Virus record (IMG/VR): IMGVR_UViG_3300030419_002143
Coordinates: 1-36,008 of that record
Reading direction: 5' to 3' (one strand)
DNA: 36,008 nucleotides
Source of the DNA: a virus
Under the pieces are notes generated by a model that saw only the letters and a program-made list of their open reading frames with translations, was not told where the DNA came from and searched no databases. Numbering within the stretch: the first letter of the stretch is position 1; each line of letters begins with the position of its first letter. Below, in pieces: positions 3,801-18,121 of the stretch. The translations under genes were made by a program, and so were the position numbers.

Positions 3801-6300
3801 AATATTGCATCTCTTCTCTAACTAAATCTCCAAGGTTGTCAGAAATATCAGGTATTAATTTTGCTCTTAAAGTAAATGTGTAATCAATATCAGCAAGAAT
3901 TTCCTCAGCTAAATCTATAGACGCTTTGTCTTTATTCCCTCGCGTTTGAATAAAATTATTAAGTTTAATTTTAATTTTGTTTAAAGAATTTTCAAGTTTT
4001 CTATAATTATTTGCACCAACAATTTCTTCTAAGTTGCCATGCATTGTGCTTTTATAATTATTTAAAAGCATTAATTTCATGTCGTCTGTTGATTGTGCGG
4101 ATCTTACTTTTACAGTTTTCCTATGCATTTCATTAAGCGCATCTGCAGCACCCATGTACGCGTTTCCGTAAAATTTTGATTGAGCGTCAGACCCATAGTA
4201 TCTTGCTTTAAACAATGGTTTTCTGCCAGGAGTATAATCAAATGCATCTGAAGGTATTTTGTTAACATCTTTGCTAATCATAACAGAAGGTTGATAATGC
4301 CCAGTAGGGTCTTTCAAGGCTGCTGTTACTTTCAAGCTTGCCAACTCTTCTTCTAAACCACTTGCCATTATCATGTCTCCTAAAGGAGTGTCTTTGAATT
4401 TTTTTGGGTACACTATAGGCTCAATCATTTCTGCAACATTTATTTCGTCTCCTGTTTTTTTACCAAACAGTTTTAATAAAGGATTTTTTGCAATATCCTC
4501 ATCTGTAAGAACTTTTGATTTTGCTGCAAGCTTTGGGTATATTTGGTCATATGTTCTTAAAATAGTATTAATAGTTGCAGGCACTCTTTTATCTGTTGCT
4601 AAATTTCCATATTGATTTAATTTAATGGTTCCATTTTTAACATAAAATTCTAAAGCTTCCAGGCTTTCTCTGTCTATTAAAGCATCAATATTTATAGGCG
4701 CTGTGCCAAAAAGATCTTCGTCTCTGATTATATCATTTGCGTATGGGTTGCTTTTCATTATTTCTGAAAGCTTTAGCCCGCTTTCAAGTTCCAACCCAGC
4801 ATTGTCAAAATCTTTAGCGTCTCTAATAATTTTTGATGTAATTTCTTTTCCATCTATTCCTTGTCCGTAAGTAATATTTAAAAGTCTTAAATTACCTACA
4901 GTATCAAAAATATCTTTAAACATTTGATTGTCCAAAGTTTGATGTGAGTCTGCCTGGTTTAGTAAATCACTTAAACTTTCTTTAAATCCATTTGTATATG
5001 TTCTTCGCAGTTCATTAGCTAAATCAGAATTTTTTATTTTAGTTCCAAATTTTATTAACCCTTTTACGCCAGGGAAATTGCCTATAAAATTTCTGGTTAA
5101 TCTTGGAATGTGTCTGTAAGAACGCAGCACATCTTCTGACGACATATATTTATTTGGTTTAAATTCTGATTTAGTATATACCCGACTTTGCGGGGATGCC
5201 TTTATTGGAGCATCTAAATCTGAATTAAAAAGATCTGGATCATTAATAGTAGTTGTTTCTTGCGTGCTTTTACCTTTAACTCTTCCTGCTTTTATTTCTT
5301 GATTTACTCCATCAACAGCTTTGCGATTAGCTTCATTTAATGGCATCCCTTCTAGTATTGCGTCTTTACGAAACCTGTTTGTAAGATTTGATAAAGCTTG
5401 CATAGAATTAGAACCTATTTCTTTAGCTGCTCTAAATGGTAAAAATAAAAGTTTTCCAAAAGCGTCTTCTACTCTTCTAGCAGTTTTAAGACCTTCTGAA
5501 ACTCCTGTAACAATTGTTCTAGCAGTTTGTTTTTTTAGTCTATCTGCTGTTGTAACGGTAGGCATTTTTGTAATTAATTTTCTTCCTGAAACACCTAAAG
5601 TTGTTCCAAGTTTAGCCAACCCCCCTGTTGCAATTGATTCTGCAACAACAGACGCACCCAATGCATAGCCTTCATGTAAAGCCCTGTTATCAAATTCTAC
5701 CCCAAACACTTCGTTTTTTTCTGTAAGCCATGGTTTATACTTATCTTGCACAGGTTTTATAATTTCATATTTTTCCATTCTTGTAGGCTCTCTGCCTAAA
5801 CTTTTTTTAAGATTATCTATTGCTTGTGCTGACTCTATTCCAGCCGCAGTTTCTTTAGATGGATCTAATGCTTCTCCTATTTCTTTAGGAATTAACCCGC
5901 GAGTTAAACCAGAAGTTATATCAGCACTACGACTTAAGCCTTCTCTTCCTAAAAATTCCATGTCTTGTAAGGTTTTTGATACACCAGCTTCGCGTGAAGG
6001 ATCTCTTTTTATAATATCTCTAGAAGGATATCCAAAAGAAATATCTTCTGGCACGTCTCCAAATTGCAATTTTTCTATAAGTGACGCAATTGGGGATGAA
6101 TATTGATCTTTTTCTATATCTAATTGAATAAATGGTTGTGACATTCCTGTTTTGTGAACGTTTTCATACCAACTTAAAGCATCTTCTACGGGCTGACCAA
6201 GATTAAACCCAGGAGGGCCTGGTTGCTCTCTTTGGGTTCTCATGTTTCTTTTTGACGCTGCTATTTCACGCAGCCTTTTTATTTGTTCTTCGGTAGGCAT
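859..6300 (-). CDS. Giant 1813-residue virion protein, possible injected 'polyvalent-like' protein
   Basis: This is the largest gene in the window and lies inside the head operon. Its start overlaps the previous stop (TAATG). The N terminus is basic and proline-containing. Residues about 200-240 form a Gly/Ala-rich hydrophobic stretch, and residues 700-920 are helical and charged. Around residues 930-1070 a segment reads LMATADFSQIGIHGWG, and further on FERGFVQFGNTLR. Its order and spacing recall the large polyvalent protein-associated domain (LPD38 type) of very large phage proteins thought to enter the host with DNA. Residues about 1130-1210 contain hydrophobic stretches (FGAMFLATVAI, WYTIPLIAF) that could insert into membrane. 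The last 500 residues are charged and helical. No peptidase, lysozyme or nuclease motif was recognised. With no tape-measure gene seen, an internal DNA-ejection protein is the favoured role (inference). Confidence 0.6.
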   Translation of the reverse strand: MPTEEQIKRLREIAASKRNMRTQREQPGPPGFNLGQPVEDALSWYENVHKTGMSQPFIQLDIEKDQYSSPIASLIEKLQFGDVPEDISFGYPSRDIIKRDPSREAGVSKTLQDMEFLGREGLSRSADITSGLTRGLIPKEIGEALDPSKETAAGIESAQAIDNLKKSLGREPTRMEKYEIIKPVQDKYKPWLTEKNEVFGVEFDNRALHEGYALGASVVAESIATGGLAKLGTTLGVSGRKLITKMPTVTTADRLKKQTARTIVTGVSEGLKTARRVEDAFGKLLFLPFRAAKEIGSNSMQALSNLTNRFRKDAILEGMPLNEANRKAVDGVNQEIKAGRVKGKSTQETTTINDPDLFNSDLDAPIKASPQSRVYTKSEFKPNKYMSSEDVLRSYRHIPRLTRNFIGNFPGVKGLIKFGTKIKNSDLANELRRTYTNGFKESLSDLLNQADSHQTLDNQMFKDIFDTVGNLRLLNITYGQGIDGKEITSKIIRDAKDFDNAGLELESGLKLSEIMKSNPYANDIIRDEDLFGTAPINIDALIDRESLEALEFYVKNGTIKLNQYGNLATDKRVPATINTILRTYDQIYPKLAAKSKVLTDEDIAKNPLLKLFGKKTGDEINVAEMIEPIVYPKKFKDTPLGDMIMASGLEEELASLKVTAALKDPTGHYQPSVMISKDVNKIPSDAFDYTPGRKPLFKARYYGSDAQSKFYGNAYMGAADALNEMHRKTVKVRSAQSTDDMKLMLLNNYKSTMHGNLEEIVGANNYRKLENSLNKIKIKLNNFIQTRGNKDKASIDLAEEILADIDYTFTLRAKLIPDISDNLGDLVREEMQYLGQRIAYLNNEITKLTRKKIGWTPQDRVVFRTEIKNLNKIYKDIKKNAFDDLPNYDNKVIESYGFPKQLNAAMVELEEERAQIVGGFDPKIGWLRLAFMRTLMATADFSQIGIHGWGMLINDTVRLTKDFVTGKTPGVNRDGNTFTSIKDSFKALFAGDDSTLQEYIRRKTLYAMENNLPTPRQAINDGVAWLPNAPDMLFQGAGLPTRIQKMLRPFERGFVQFGNTLRYDSYINEIEDMVVATGKSIDELRADGTLAEIAGTINLATGVGRRGFGGAVGQFVFFAPQYNQSKIAMWAKTIRGTAKGRNATPGEAYARRHIGQVFGAMFLATVAINEAQGKDTDVMPFLKSRTGKWFSNPNFLKTNFLDQQTNLFGHYINTYKWYTIPLIAFYNWKNTGFKEHPLEVMKDLTKLISAPAISLAVDLIRGEDPIGGKTREEYMGVEYDVNTGEFIEVKKGFKNVFFGGGSGPDIPIINAPISDFWIRIMENFIPINASDFYPEAGDPDIKDQILSNPARGIANITAQTGFGVIGQTSVYKTPKEMQDEMFSKLITSDPNHPDHKEMMRILNENLGLTKKELEIIFAEAGKGLWNKGDINLQRAIRSLVLGETEPNFSNLRDSIRKEIKKAAESGAFPETVPQEEYEKQLKRLEELREDSADEFNKLQVLKQKRTLLLEEDMQKTEDKFLEGNMSNISTFLYSDSVSTPGIRSLMKKAAEDNRNLTDKFPKVTRLFDQLRDANLKIDSSLDVDMYDYARNSYYETLWGEGGIPNPKTLSLDWDKKEQLIEKWSEDLKNKFGSITDNEIITYLYEIERTDRNQAGDVGNLLLTMQDAISESGYYNLEKDVLKKYVSESPDRAAAAEEWKNKTQADRDKEDTPRWIERWQDETKRLESQYLLNNPEIDVMFQIVGTRVKRPVSNHGRLMKNFFERYNRVPENRRKEVLNKEKLLTILDLILSDEYTESDKKSQYDTLYSVLYES

Positions 6301-12656: not shown

Positions 12657-13111
12657 TATTGTTTCTTTTCTAAAATATCCGTCAAAGTGTCTTCAATCTG
12701 CTCTGGCAAATCATTGTTTCTTCGCTGCTTTTCATTTTCTCTAGCTATTTCCCGCATTTCACTAATCAAATCTTTTGCTGCCTCATCACTAACCGCAGCG
12801 ATTGGCTTGAACCGTTCTGGCAAGAACCCATTCATCAAATACATTGCAAGAGTGTCATGCTTACTACTTCCGTTTATAAGAGCTTCCTTAACCGCATTTG
12901 TCGATATTACCACAAGGCTTTCACCATACGATGTCTCAGCACCCTTGACCAGGTCAACATACCCTGGCTCTTCTTTCTTCCAACGCTCAAACGTCCTGCG
13001 AGATATCCCAACATCCTTCAAAGCCTCGCCAACAACACCATGCTCCTCGATGGCCTTAACCATCAACTTCATGTTTGCTTCTTTCTTCTGCCTACCTGCA
13101 TCATTTGCCAT
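12656..13111 (-). CDS. terS: Terminase small subunit
   Basis: A 151-residue DNA-recognition subunit of the packaging enzyme. A helix-turn-helix lies near residues 24-46 (GEALKDVGISRRTFERWKKE), followed by a helical oligomerisation region and a charged C-terminal tail that probably contacts TerL. The ATG at 13109-13111 is preferred because AGAAAGG lies about 10 bases upstream; a TTG two codons earlier is also open. It is the first gene of the leftward head operon, so the strongly repeated region just upstream could hold the operon promoter and perhaps a pac/cos-like or origin signal. Confidence 0.85.
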   Translation of the reverse strand: MANDAGRQKKEANMKLMVKAIEEHGVVGEALKDVGISRRTFERWKKEEPGYVDLVKGAETSYGESLVVISTNAVKEALINGSSKHDTLAMYLMNGFLPERFKPIAAVSDEAAKDLISEMREIARENEKQRRNNDLPEQIEDTLTDILEKKQ

Positions 13112-13154
13112 AAACAAGAAGCCTTTCTTTCTTTTATATATTTTCTTTCTTTGT

Positions 13155-13160
13155 ATTATA
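13155..13160 (-). promoter_or_regulatory. Possible -10 box of the leftward head operon
   Basis: The minus strand reads TATAAT here, about 44 bases before the TerS ATG. The place for a -35 box is pure A/T with no TTGACA-like match, and it merges into the arms of the palindrome at 13181-13230. A promoter that lacks a -35 box and overlaps a palindrome would fit activator-dependent late transcription. In such AT-rich DNA the match could also be chance. Confidence 0.35.
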
Positions 13161-13180
13161 TTAATATATAATAATAATAT

Positions 13181-13230
13181 ATAATTACAAATTACAAATA
13201 CCTTAAGGTAAATTTGTAATTTGTAATTAT
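13181..13230. repeat. Large inverted repeat centred on CCTTAAGG
   Basis: The arms 13181-13204 and 13205-13230 are exact reverse complements apart from a 2-base AA insertion in the right arm. Each arm carries two overlapping copies of the AATTACAA word. Looser A/T symmetry continues out to about 13155 and 13255. There is no loop at the centre, so as DNA it is a cruciform or protein-binding palindrome rather than a terminator, and no T tract follows on either strand. Confidence 0.85.
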
Positions 13231-13401
13231 TATTATATATATTATTAATTACAACAAAATTACAAACTTTTACAACGTAATTACGTTTGTAATTTACCTC
13301 AATCGTTTTTCATTTTATACGCTGGATTTCTTAAATGTCAACAAAAATAACAAATTACAAACAAATTACATTGTAATTACATTGTAATTAGGGCTGTAAT
13401 T
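13183..13401. repeat. Cluster of AATTACAA/TTGTAATT words (candidate origin or operator array)
   Basis: Ten perfect copies of the 8-bp word occur in about 207 bp, in both orientations: 13183, 13190, 13214, 13221, 13247, 13258, 13287, 13353, 13371 and 13382. Near copies lie at 13364 and 13394. Pairs are often joined as inverted repeats (AAATTACAAAC at 13257-13267 with GTTTGTAATTT at 13285-13295), and a 14-bp palindrome AACGTAATTACGTT lies at 13274-13287. The density is far above the surrounding AT-rich DNA. It could be a replication-initiator array, a late-operon operator or a packaging recognition region. Confidence 0.8.
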
Positions 13402-13881
13402 ATAATAATTATACCTAAATTAGCGTTACGAAAGATTGTTTTGCGTGTTTTGTTAGTTTGTCAACGATACTTTATTTGCAAAATAAATCGTCATGGGTAT
13501 CTTATTTACCGTGGAAATTTCTCTAAGCCCTACCCCTATGTCATACCTAATCATTGTCTACTGTTTGTTACTTAACTTCTAGCTTCTAATGCTATAAGAT
13601 CTAATGTTAACTGTTTCATATTAACTACTTACTACTAATCACTTATCACTAATTACCTGTACATGACTAAATAGTTATAGGGTTATAGTTGTTATTGGTA
13701 AGTTATAGGGTAAGTTGTAGGGTTTAGTGTAAGTTCTTACGCGTACGCGCGTGTGTGTGCGTTTTTTTATATTTGCCAACATACGACATAATACATTTAA
13801 TGTCATATATTTATTAGCGCGTTTTTTTTCACGGGTTCGCCGTTTTTAATTGCGCCGATTTTCAAAATGTAAATTCTATTT
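13402..13881. other. Non-coding AT-rich stretch with small tandem repeats
   Basis: No convincing gene on either strand. It holds a run of related TACTTACTACTAATCACTTA-like words at about 13620-13665, and a tandem 12-bp unit (GGTAAGTTATAG then GGTAAGTTGTAG, 13697-13720) embedded in TAGGG-containing sequence. Next come a GC-rich alternating tract at 13739-13761 and an A/T-rich tail with poly-T runs. No standard terminator is seen for the leftward gene ending at 13882. Together with the AATTACAA cluster this is the longest non-coding region in the window. Confidence 0.7.
13739..13761. other. Alternating purine-pyrimidine GC-rich tract
   Basis: Twenty-three bases alternate strictly between purine and pyrimidine: ACGCGTACGCGCG (13739-13751) followed by TGTGTGTGCG (13752-13761). 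It includes the palindrome CGCGTACGCG at 13740-13749. It is isolated in very AT-rich DNA and is the classic composition for Z-DNA formation. No function can be read from the sequence. Confidence 0.8.
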
Positions 13882-14211
13882 TTATTGGCAATATTTATTT
13901 TCTAAGTATTCCAATAAAAGTTGATAATTATTCCAAAAAATAGTATCATCGCTCAAATCGTCAATATCCCAACTATTGTAGTCAACACCAAGTCTTTGGT
14001 GCATCGCAAAAATATATTTTCTTACTTGATTATCCTCTAAGATTTCGGACTCTTCCATTGGGAAGAATTCGCCTGTAGTTTTTTGCCAGTCAGAATCTAT
14101 ATATTCCATTAAATCAATTCCCAACTGATCCCGAAAATCTGAAAGTTTATCTTCATATTTAACTATCATTTTTTCATGTTTGGACAATTCTCTATAGGGT
14201 TTAATATACAT
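13882..14211 (-). CDS. Small acidic protein, divergent early gene, unknown function
   Basis: A 109-residue, strongly acidic, Tyr/Trp-containing protein with no recognised domain, cysteine motif or membrane segment. The ATG follows AAGGAGCG, the same unusual ribosome-binding site used by the rightward early genes, and a sigma-70-like promoter lies 35-60 bases upstream (14245-14273). It is the only gene between the control repeats and the non-coding region, and it is transcribed divergently from the early operon. That position is typical for a regulator, but no helix-turn-helix is visible. An anti-repressor or host-takeover protein is equally possible. Confidence 0.72.
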   Translation of the reverse strand: MYIKPYRELSKHEKMIVKYEDKLSDFRDQLGIDLMEYIDSDWQKTTGEFFPMEESEILEDNQVRKYIFAMHQRLGVDYNSWDIDDLSDDTIFWNNYQLLLEYLENKYCQ

Positions 14212-15230: not shown

Positions 15231-15259
15231 TACTACTGCGGGAACTACCCGCAGTAGTA
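15231..15259 (+). other. Intercistronic RNA hairpin
   Basis: A perfect 12-bp stem (TACTACTGCGGG with CCCGCAGTAGTA) encloses a 5-base loop. What follows is A-rich (AAAACAAAAG), so this is not a classical terminator. It lies 14 bases before the next AGGAGCG site. It may mark an RNA-processing or stabilising site, or adjust how much transcript continues. Confidence 0.75.
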
Positions 15260-15284
15260 CAAAACAAAAGATAGGAGCGAAGCA

Positions 15285-15593: not shown

Positions 15594-15606
15594 TTTTATT
15601 TATTGG

Positions 15607-15639
15607 TAACCCGAGTTTGACCGCTCGGGTTATCATTTT
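15607..15639 (+). terminator. Rho-independent terminator (possibly leaky)
   Basis: The stem TAACCCGAG / CTCGGGTTA (15607-15615 and 15624-15632) extends by two weaker pairs and has an 8-base loop; ATTTTATTTT follows. The next gene begins 27 bases later with no obvious new promoter, so read-through is probably needed and the element may set relative expression. Confidence 0.75.
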
Positions 15640-16285: not shown

Positions 16286-16340
16286 GCTAGAGTTATCTCT
16301 AGCGTGTAAGAGTGATAGATTCTATCACTCTTACATTTTA
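16286..16340 (+). terminator. Double hairpin terminator
   Basis: First hairpin: GCTAGAG / CTCTAGC around TTAT (16286-16303). Second: a near-perfect palindrome with arms TGTAAGAGTGATAGA (16305-16319) and its complement (16321-16335), followed by TTTTA. The second is a strong intrinsic terminator candidate. The GP88-like gene begins 33 bases later, so either read-through or an unseen promoter supplies it. Confidence 0.8.
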
Positions 16341-16372
16341 GGGATAAACAACAAAAGATAAGGAGCGATATT

Positions 16373-17263: not shown

Positions 17264-17467
17264 ATGAAACAAACAGAAACAATGACACCACATAGAGCTG
17301 TGGGTATAGCTGAGGGTTTTATAGAAGTTGATACAGAACAGGAAGTATTGGAAGCATGGCAATATCTAGTCGATACCGACATGGCTTGGACACTTCAGGG
17401 TTCATTCGGTAGAATGGCTCAACACTTAATAAATGAGGGATTAATAACTTACAAAGGAGCGAATTAA
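17264..17467 (+). CDS. Small conserved-looking phage protein
   Basis: A 67-residue acidic protein. The segment EAWQYLVDTDMAWTLQGSFG, followed by RMAQHLINEGLI, has the look of a recurring small phage protein with an 'AWQYL..T.mAW.LQG.FGR' core; this is recognition by pattern only and no function is known. The ATG follows AAGGAGCG (17251-17258). The stop overlaps the next start (TAATG). Confidence 0.75.
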   Translation: MKQTETMTPHRAVGIAEGFIEVDTEQEVLEAWQYLVDTDMAWTLQGSFGRMAQHLINEGLITYKGAN

Positions 17468-17625
17468 TGAAACTAGAATTTCAAATAATAAAAGACAATA
17501 AGATTGTAGATAGTTTTAATAGTATGACATACAAAAAAGCTATTAAAAAAATAGGTAACCAATATAAAGGTAGCGTATTAAAATACACGAACAAAAAAGG
17601 AACCAATATATCAATAACTATTTAA
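17467..17625 (+). CDS. Very small basic protein, unknown function
   Basis: A 52-residue protein (starts MKLEFQIIKDNKIVD, ends GTNISITI). The ATG is coupled to the previous stop (TAATG) and has its own AGGAGCG (17455-17461). Lysine-rich, with alternating strand-helix-strand character. Accepted despite its length because of the ribosome-binding site and coupling. Confidence 0.65.
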   Translation: MKLEFQIIKDNKIVDSFNSMTYKKAIKKIGNQYKGSVLKYTNKKGTNISITI

Positions 17626-17653
17626 ACGCATAGTAAGACTGTGCGTTGATGCA

Positions 17654-17705
17654 AACAGCTATGATGGGAAGATTATTTTTCGCTCCTTAATCTTCCCTAG
17701 CTGTT
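17654..17705 (+). ncRNA. RNA hairpin with anti-ribosome-binding-site loop
   Basis: Arms AACAGCT (17654-17660) and GGGAAGATTA (17666-17675) pair with TAATCTTCCC (17688-17697) and AGCTGTT (17699-17705), giving a 7+10 bp stem with an asymmetric bulge. The 12-base loop is UUUUUCGCUCCU. The loop is the exact complement of AGGAGCG, the ribosome-binding site repeated through the preceding genes, and with the next stem bases it reads CUCCUUA, like the 3' end of 16S rRNA. No T tract follows, so it is not a terminator. It lies at the boundary between the AGGAGCG block and the zinc-ribbon block. The regulatory role is inferred. Confidence 0.6.
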
Positions 17706-17734
17706 AATAAACGGAGCGAGTAAGGAGCAAACGA

Positions 17735-18121
17735 ATGAGTAATACGAAGAGGATGAAGACCAAGTTTATATGTAACGAATGCGGTTCTGACGATCTGTAT
17801 TTTGATGCTGATCTTCAATGGGATTCCGATGCAGATGATTTTTATTATTTCGCAGAACGACCTGATGACTTTGGGTATGTCGGGAAATGTCATGGAGAAA
17901 ACCATCAAGGAGATACAAAAATTTGGGGTGAATATACAGCGGTAGAGTTTGAAGATAAAGAGTTTAGATGTAAAGAATGTATAGATAATGGTCAAGACGG
18001 AGATCGATTAATGTACGAGGTTTGGTATGACTACAACACAAAACAATATATTTGTGATACCGATTTTGGCACATGGTGTGCTGACTGTGACGACTATATA
18101 AGTGAAATAATAGAGGTGTAA
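17735..18121 (+). CDS. Multi-CxxC zinc-binding protein
   Basis: A 128-residue, very acidic protein. FICNECGSDDLYFDA near residues 11-25 starts a zinc ribbon, and CKECID (about 78-83) and WCADCDD (about 114-120) add CxxC pairs, so one or two metal sites are likely. The opening motif matches the 64- and 70-residue proteins at 18717 and 18908. AAGGAGC lies before the ATG, with a second GGAGCG slightly upstream. The function is unknown; nucleic-acid mimicry or protein binding would suit the charge. Confidence 0.75.
   Translation: MSNTKRMKTKFICNECGSDDLYFDADLQWDSDADDFYYFAERPDDFGYVGKCHGENHQGDTKIWGEYTAVEFEDKEFRCKECIDNGQDGDRLMYEVWYDYNTKQYICDTDFGTWCADCDDYISEIIEV

Follow-up and report, generated by a model that had tools for sequence, protein, structure and literature searches.

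H-type pseudoknot riboswitches are built around a short stem 1. In the preQ1-I, SAM-II, SAM-V and SAM/SAH classes, the loop pairs with the downstream Shine–Dalgarno sequence (SD), or with purines close to it, in the 5' leader (PMC11625349, PMC6061858, PMC7367207). The element described here, a hairpin in the gap between two phage genes, resembles these RNAs in that its loop can pair with an SD-proximal GGAG segment in a leader. It differs in the length of its first stem (S1), which comprises 13–18 bp; moreover, the riboswitches retain a conserved ligand core in a gene-specific context, whereas here no aptamer-like core is visible and the neighbouring genes are swapped.

A phage precedent is provided by gene 32 of T4 and RB69: a pseudoknot of about 28 nt is followed by >40 nt of less structured sequence containing the ribosome-binding site (RBS), and it nucleates the binding of gp32 at this one gene (PMC535899). 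The shared feature would be a pseudoknot lying 5' of the SD in a phage mRNA leader; however, the 3' strand of our putative pseudoknot is a GGAG segment near the SD, and the gene downstream of it varies. Hammerhead ribozymes often contain a loop-to-tail pseudoknot (PMC3088659), and the RAGATH-1-hammerhead (RF03152) and the hammerheads of phage gene gaps are, like the element, intergenic RNAs ahead of an SD. Phage-derived small RNAs, as outlined in PMC12197685, are likewise phage-encoded and could pair with mRNA; relative to that outline, the element differs in that its strongest predicted partner lies in cis. Rfam covariance models identified no family above the gathering threshold in the window (the whole 36,008-nt stretch of DNA that was analysed), where only chance-level matches arose up to an E-value of 10, and none in its relatives.

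The hairpin and its setting

The window, a virus record of 36 kb, carries the terminase and structural side on the minus strand and, on the plus strand, a run of small accessory genes, then a nuclease, and then a helicase/primase-like gene. The element lies in a 109-nt gap between two plus-strand genes (Table 1). The preliminary description had placed it at the 3' end of the block of genes that use the RBS AGGAGCG; it does follow this block, but it is also the leader of the gene starting at 17735, in which two SD-like segments stand in tandem (GGAGCGA, then the SD UAAGGAGC).

Table 1. Coordinates of the element and its flanking genes in the window
Feature	Position	Strand	Details
Upstream gene	17467..17625	+	52 aa; RBS AAAGGAGCGAAUUAAUG
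Short 5' hairpin	17626..17646	+	ACGCAUAGU-AAG-ACUGUGCGU; predicted fold
Shared leader	17646..17654	+	UUGAUGCAA; adjoins the stem
S1, 5' arm	17654..17675	+	AACAGCUA, bulge UGAU, GGGAAGAUUA; from the fold; inner 10 pairs covary
Loop	17676..17687	+	UUUUUCGCUCCU; S2a is UCGCUCC at 17680–17686
S1, 3' arm	17688..17705	+	UAAUCUUCCCUAGCUGUU; from the fold
Linker	17706..17712	+	AAUAAAC, A-rich, 7 nt; pseudoknot scan
S2b	17713..17719	+	GGAGCGA; 7 bp with the loop; isolated duplex −11.4 kcal/mol
True SD of gene 17735	17722..17729	+	UAAGGAGC; ahead of the AUG at 17735
Downstream gene	17735..18121	+	128-aa cysteine-containing protein; no Pfam or PHROG match

The hairpin proposed at 17654–17705 was recovered as both the minimum free energy and the centroid fold; the segment 17640–17720 folds with −25.9 kcal/mol (z about −3.5), and 1 of 200 shuffled sequences did equally well. 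S1 consists of eight pairs (AACAGCUA/UAGCUGUU), the 4-nt bulge UGAU and a further ten pairs (GGGAAGAUUA/UAAUCUUCCC), giving 18 pairs in place of the 17 bp originally counted, and it closes a loop of 12 nt. A shorter hairpin precedes the element in the folds of the window and of the L084-type relatives; by eye, L083 has a UAGGGU-AUA-ACCCUA hairpin in the matching place. Immediately 5' of the stem, all versions carry YUGAUGYAA, in the form CUGAUGUAA in L082, L084 and L085, and UUGAUGCAA in L083.

The segment before and within the stem also contains a 13-codon frame at 17649 (AUGCAAACAGC..., encoding MQTAMMGRLFFAP), which ends within the stem and is matched in position by a 26-codon frame in L083, as might be expected for a leader peptide attenuator. 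However, no SD lies ahead of it, the matching start in L084 reads AUG UAA and thus specifies a single codon, and the peptides are unrelated, making this explanation extremely unlikely. Equally improbable is an intrinsic terminator or attenuator, despite the occurrence of a strong hairpin after a gene: neither strand has a U tract, the plus strand presenting the A-rich linker and the minus strand UUUGCAUCAACGC near the stem, and the element was not called by a terminator scan that does call the site at 15604. The latter, a stem-loop at 15604–15635 within the AGGAGCG block, resembles an intrinsic terminator.

Several hammerhead candidates were encountered in the related phages. That on the minus strand of L092 (5974–6031) is of type I, lies in a gene gap and has a complete core (CUGACGA, GAAA and UA) together with a loop II-to-downstream pairing, UGGCUC/GAGCCA; its best Rfam match, at 24.3 bits, is to RAGATH-1-hammerhead and falls under the gathering score. 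Three further type I candidates occupy intergenic positions, each 5' of an SD, on the minus strand of L142 (∼2630–2575 and ∼2100–2045) and in L035 (4687–4749). These complete cores suggest that structured RNAs do occur in the gene-gap niche of related phages. Given that the element belongs to the same position class, with a putative pseudoknot and the shared YUGAUGYAA, it could conceivably be a self-cleaving or otherwise catalytic RNA of an undescribed kind. It has, however, neither the CUGANGA nor the GAAA core motif, nor a cleavage-site strand, and few of its unpaired bases are conserved; a hammerhead pattern scan that finds the L092, L035 and L142 candidates did not match it, and no Rfam ribozyme did so even at an E-value of 10. 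We regard catalysis as very unlikely.

Predicted local pairing of the loop and its covariation

In the window, the loop finds its best match in the local GGAGCGA at 17713–17719 (S2b), 7 nt past the stem and just 5' of the true SD; a pseudoknot scan pairs the two over 7 bp, and an inverted-repeat search paired the loop with the same SD region in a neighbouring register. No start codon lies at SD distance from S2b, which is, therefore, not itself an RBS. The true SD, UAAGGAGC, could alternatively pair with GCUCCUUA, which corresponds to part of the loop plus the first stem bases.

Relatives were gathered with DUF7417/phrog_3908, exonuclease and terminase queries, yielding a small set of contigs from the same genus, with identities to the window of 96–97% for the nuclease and about 90% for the terminase. 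Elsewhere in these genomes, the segment matching 13107–13410 of the window, upstream of the terminase genes and apparently mostly non-coding, is ∼90–91% identical at the DNA level, against ∼83–87% for the terminase region itself. The element takes the form GACUGAGAUAGGAG-UUUGCUCC-CUCCUAUCUUGGUC, with CAUAACAGGAGCAAUAAAGAGAGG or a closely similar sequence after it, in L082, L084 (also L003) and L085 (also L004), and AUUGAUAGGGGGG-GUACUCCA-CCCCCCUAUUAAU, followed by AAAAACUUUCGGAGUAC, in L083 and L088. Searches beyond this group added nothing: neither an exact search of viral contigs with the window hairpin nor a DNA search of phages with the element region gave a match, and the element was not found in bacterial genomes that carry the exonuclease. 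A gapped pattern (leader, loop and GGAGC) hit 47 stretches in viral contigs, but the structure fits in the known related contigs only, and the remainder look like chance matches; a candidate at 505–541 in L231 was rejected because it sits within a coding frame.

The pairing of loop (S2a) and S2b is UCGCUCC/GGAGCGA in the window, UUGCUCC/GGAGCAA in L084 and L082, and GUACUCC/GGAGUAC in L083 and L088, 7 bp in each case; in L085, it extends over 6 bp. Three of the seven pairs show double compensatory changes (U-A to G-C, C-G to U-A and G-C to A-U). Covariation of the stem in related phages, which had been put forward as a check, is also seen across the three versions: most of the inner 10 pairs of S1 are changed on both sides with pairing retained. 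Pairs were counted by structure, as a MAFFT alignment misaligned the stems, and the covariation is confined to three independent versions, all from one phage genus. The linker is rich in A, and stem and S2b are separated by a nearly constant distance (6, 7, 7 and 10 nt). No two distinct contigs have the same gene downstream, and the gene upstream changes from version to version; with its flanking genes thus exchanged around it, the element behaves as an independent unit.

This exchange of neighbours could also befit a plain intergenic stem-loop, serving as an mRNA stabilizer, a processing site or a cassette boundary, for which the match to S2b would mostly be a by-product of CUCC lying near GGAG. 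Strong hairpins without loop pairing do occupy other gaps of the operon (15231–15259, 15604–15635 and 16293–16347), and a large part of any one pairing is easily had, as it consists of CUCC against GGAG: with SD-like tetramers held fixed and the rest shuffled, the probabilities of the observed 7 bp are 0.05, 0.08 and 0.04, that is, a 4–8% chance for a single match. However, the match occurs jointly in three versions, with double changes that affect both strands, the product of the three probabilities being ∼2 × 10−4 if the versions are independent, and its placement is near-invariant. On balance, we consider a plain stem-loop doubtful.

These genomes contain 334 distinct strong hairpins, of which six have a loop complementarity of at least 7 within 16 nt; wherever the match includes at least three G/C, the hairpin is the present element. 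When 1.76 Mb were scanned under strict criteria on both strands, 34 matches were returned, and the combination of leader motif, SD and start occurred only in the three versions of the element. Hairpins in the terminase leaders of related phages, which served as an unplanned control, rarely have long G+C loop matches, and these are not conserved; the loop-to-SD matches in the terminase leaders of L115, L117 and L128 are probably accidental, as most such hairpins are without them. Such cases do illustrate that a C-rich loop can match a G-rich SD region by accident.

Further structures were noted in passing. In L086–L165, a long hairpin, rich in AT and ending in a C-run/G-run (e.g. ATATTACTACCCCCC-loop-GGGGGGTAGTAATAT), lies ∼550–1000 nt upstream of the large terminase gene, and it recurs in many diverged contigs with changing sequence. 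The accessory regions of L002, L003 and L004 carry GTTTAAAC palindromes across gene gaps, where they often cap perfect inverted repeats that precede an RBS; these were not noted in the window gaps that were read. In L219, a distant relative, two similar TAATCC-...-hairpin-...-GGATTA motifs precede SDs (5650–5694 and 6153–6180), and represent a possible further structured RNA.

The loop and the AGGAGCG ribosome-binding sites

AGGAGCG is strongly over-represented in the window, with 10 copies where 1.2 would be expected, and the majority of these are RBSs: six copies precede predicted plus-strand start codons (14748, 15285, 15666, 16373, 17264 and 17467), and one precedes the minus-strand ORF 13882–14211. 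The loop is complementary to it, as first described, and the longer matches given then are correct (AGGAGCGAA at 15273, 17252 and 17455, and AGGAGCGA at 16361); the loop:RBS duplexes at the AGGAGCG sites have predicted energies of −12 to −15.4 kcal/mol. The anti-SD-like nature of the loop is upheld. It had also been suggested that the loop mimics the 3' tail of 16S rRNA through CUCCUUA: this heptamer is present at 17683–17689, but its last two bases fall within the stem, and the loops of the relatives lack it, such that an intended mimic finds no support.

The RBS extension follows the loop in two of the three versions. GGAGCG is used by 6 of 28 window genes and by none of 72 in three relatives (Fisher p = 3 × 10−4), whose loops differ too; the window genes concerned are 6 of the 9 upstream of the element and none of the 19 downstream. 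L084, with the loop UUUGCUCC, has GGAGCA in 5 of 26 genes, compared with 2 of 52 in the window plus L083 (p = 0.04), again confined to the upstream side (5 of 8 genes, against 0 of 18 downstream). In L083, by contrast, the corresponding extension GGAGUA is not enriched (2 of 24, p = 1.0), and the predicted co-change of loop and RBS in relatives thus holds for the window and L084 but fails for L083. This tracking is the strongest point in favour of the idea that loop and RBS belong together, although the same pattern would be expected if S2b and the RBSs of the block share an origin.

These data bear on the proposal that the loop, carried either on the polycistronic mRNA or on a processed small RNA, pairs with the upstream AGGAGCG sites in trans or over long range, and so dampens or couples their translation. 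The favourable duplex energies and the confinement of the matching RBSs to genes upstream of the element would be in keeping with it. However, the partner of the loop that is best conserved lies nearby and does not serve as an RBS, and the common extensions may stem from a shared gene-cassette origin. Moreover, a consensus scan found no promoter or terminator convincingly framing the element as a discrete small RNA, the matches being at the chance level of the consensus, so that release as a small RNA is conceivable rather than indicated. The silencing or coupling of the upstream block, as originally envisaged, is accordingly weakened: loop and RBS motif do change together, but the conserved pairing lies elsewhere, and we judge regulation in trans or at long range to be unlikely. 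A combined scheme, in which a single structured RNA with an anti-SD loop co-evolving with the genome-specific RBS extension would set the translation of the whole cistron block, the adjacent GGAG copy acting as a resting lock, seems distinctly unlikely.

A putative pseudoknot in the leader of the downstream gene

In all three versions, the local GGAGNNN stands at a near-fixed distance and changes in step with the loop, which argues for a pseudoknot formed in cis within the next gene's leader. It is probable that the element is a genuine folded control element in the mRNA of that gene; more specifically, there is about an even chance that it acts in cis as an H-type pseudoknot leader, lies as such between two operon genes of the phage and tunes ribosome access downstream. 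The initial observation is confirmed, and its interpretation, supported in part, is re-centred on a local pseudoknot.

We infer the following course of events. S1 would present the pyrimidine-containing S2a in its loop, which would fold back onto the GGAGNNN of S2b, 6–10 nt past the stem. As S2b lies directly 5' of the true SD, the folded form would hinder loading of the 30S subunit on the next gene, lowering its translation and separating it from that of the upstream gene; opening by some signal, or mere competition with ribosomes, would then permit initiation. The upstream stop codon precedes the stem by ∼20–38 nt; a ribosome that terminates there should, therefore, leave the stem closed, and insulation would fit better than coupling.

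The isolated S2 duplexes have predicted energies of −8.7 to −11.4 kcal/mol, whereas the predicted pairing of the true SDs with the anti-SD is weaker, at −7.8 to −8.4 kcal/mol; both are values for bare duplexes that leave out loop entropy. The main physical doubt about the pseudoknot is the short linker over a long stem (7 nt for 18 bp in the window, 6–7 nt for 15 bp in L084 and L085, and 10 nt for 13 bp in the remaining version): spanning S1 would presumably be feasible only if the linker is nearly extended or the outer stem is frayed, and the full S1 and S2 may, therefore, not coexist without fraying.

Judged by its sequence, the element is a credible candidate for a new RNA element with few homologues. 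If the pseudoknot forms, the element would represent a leader RNA that has not been described before, from a little-known phage group; it is kept as a unit amid gene exchange, and its SD-like strand co-evolves with its loop. The tracking of loop and RBS also offers a simple test of whether genome-specific RBS extensions serve as an address for RNA control. If true, the proposed mechanism would reveal a way in which genes that a phage has newly acquired are insulated or tuned within its long operons.
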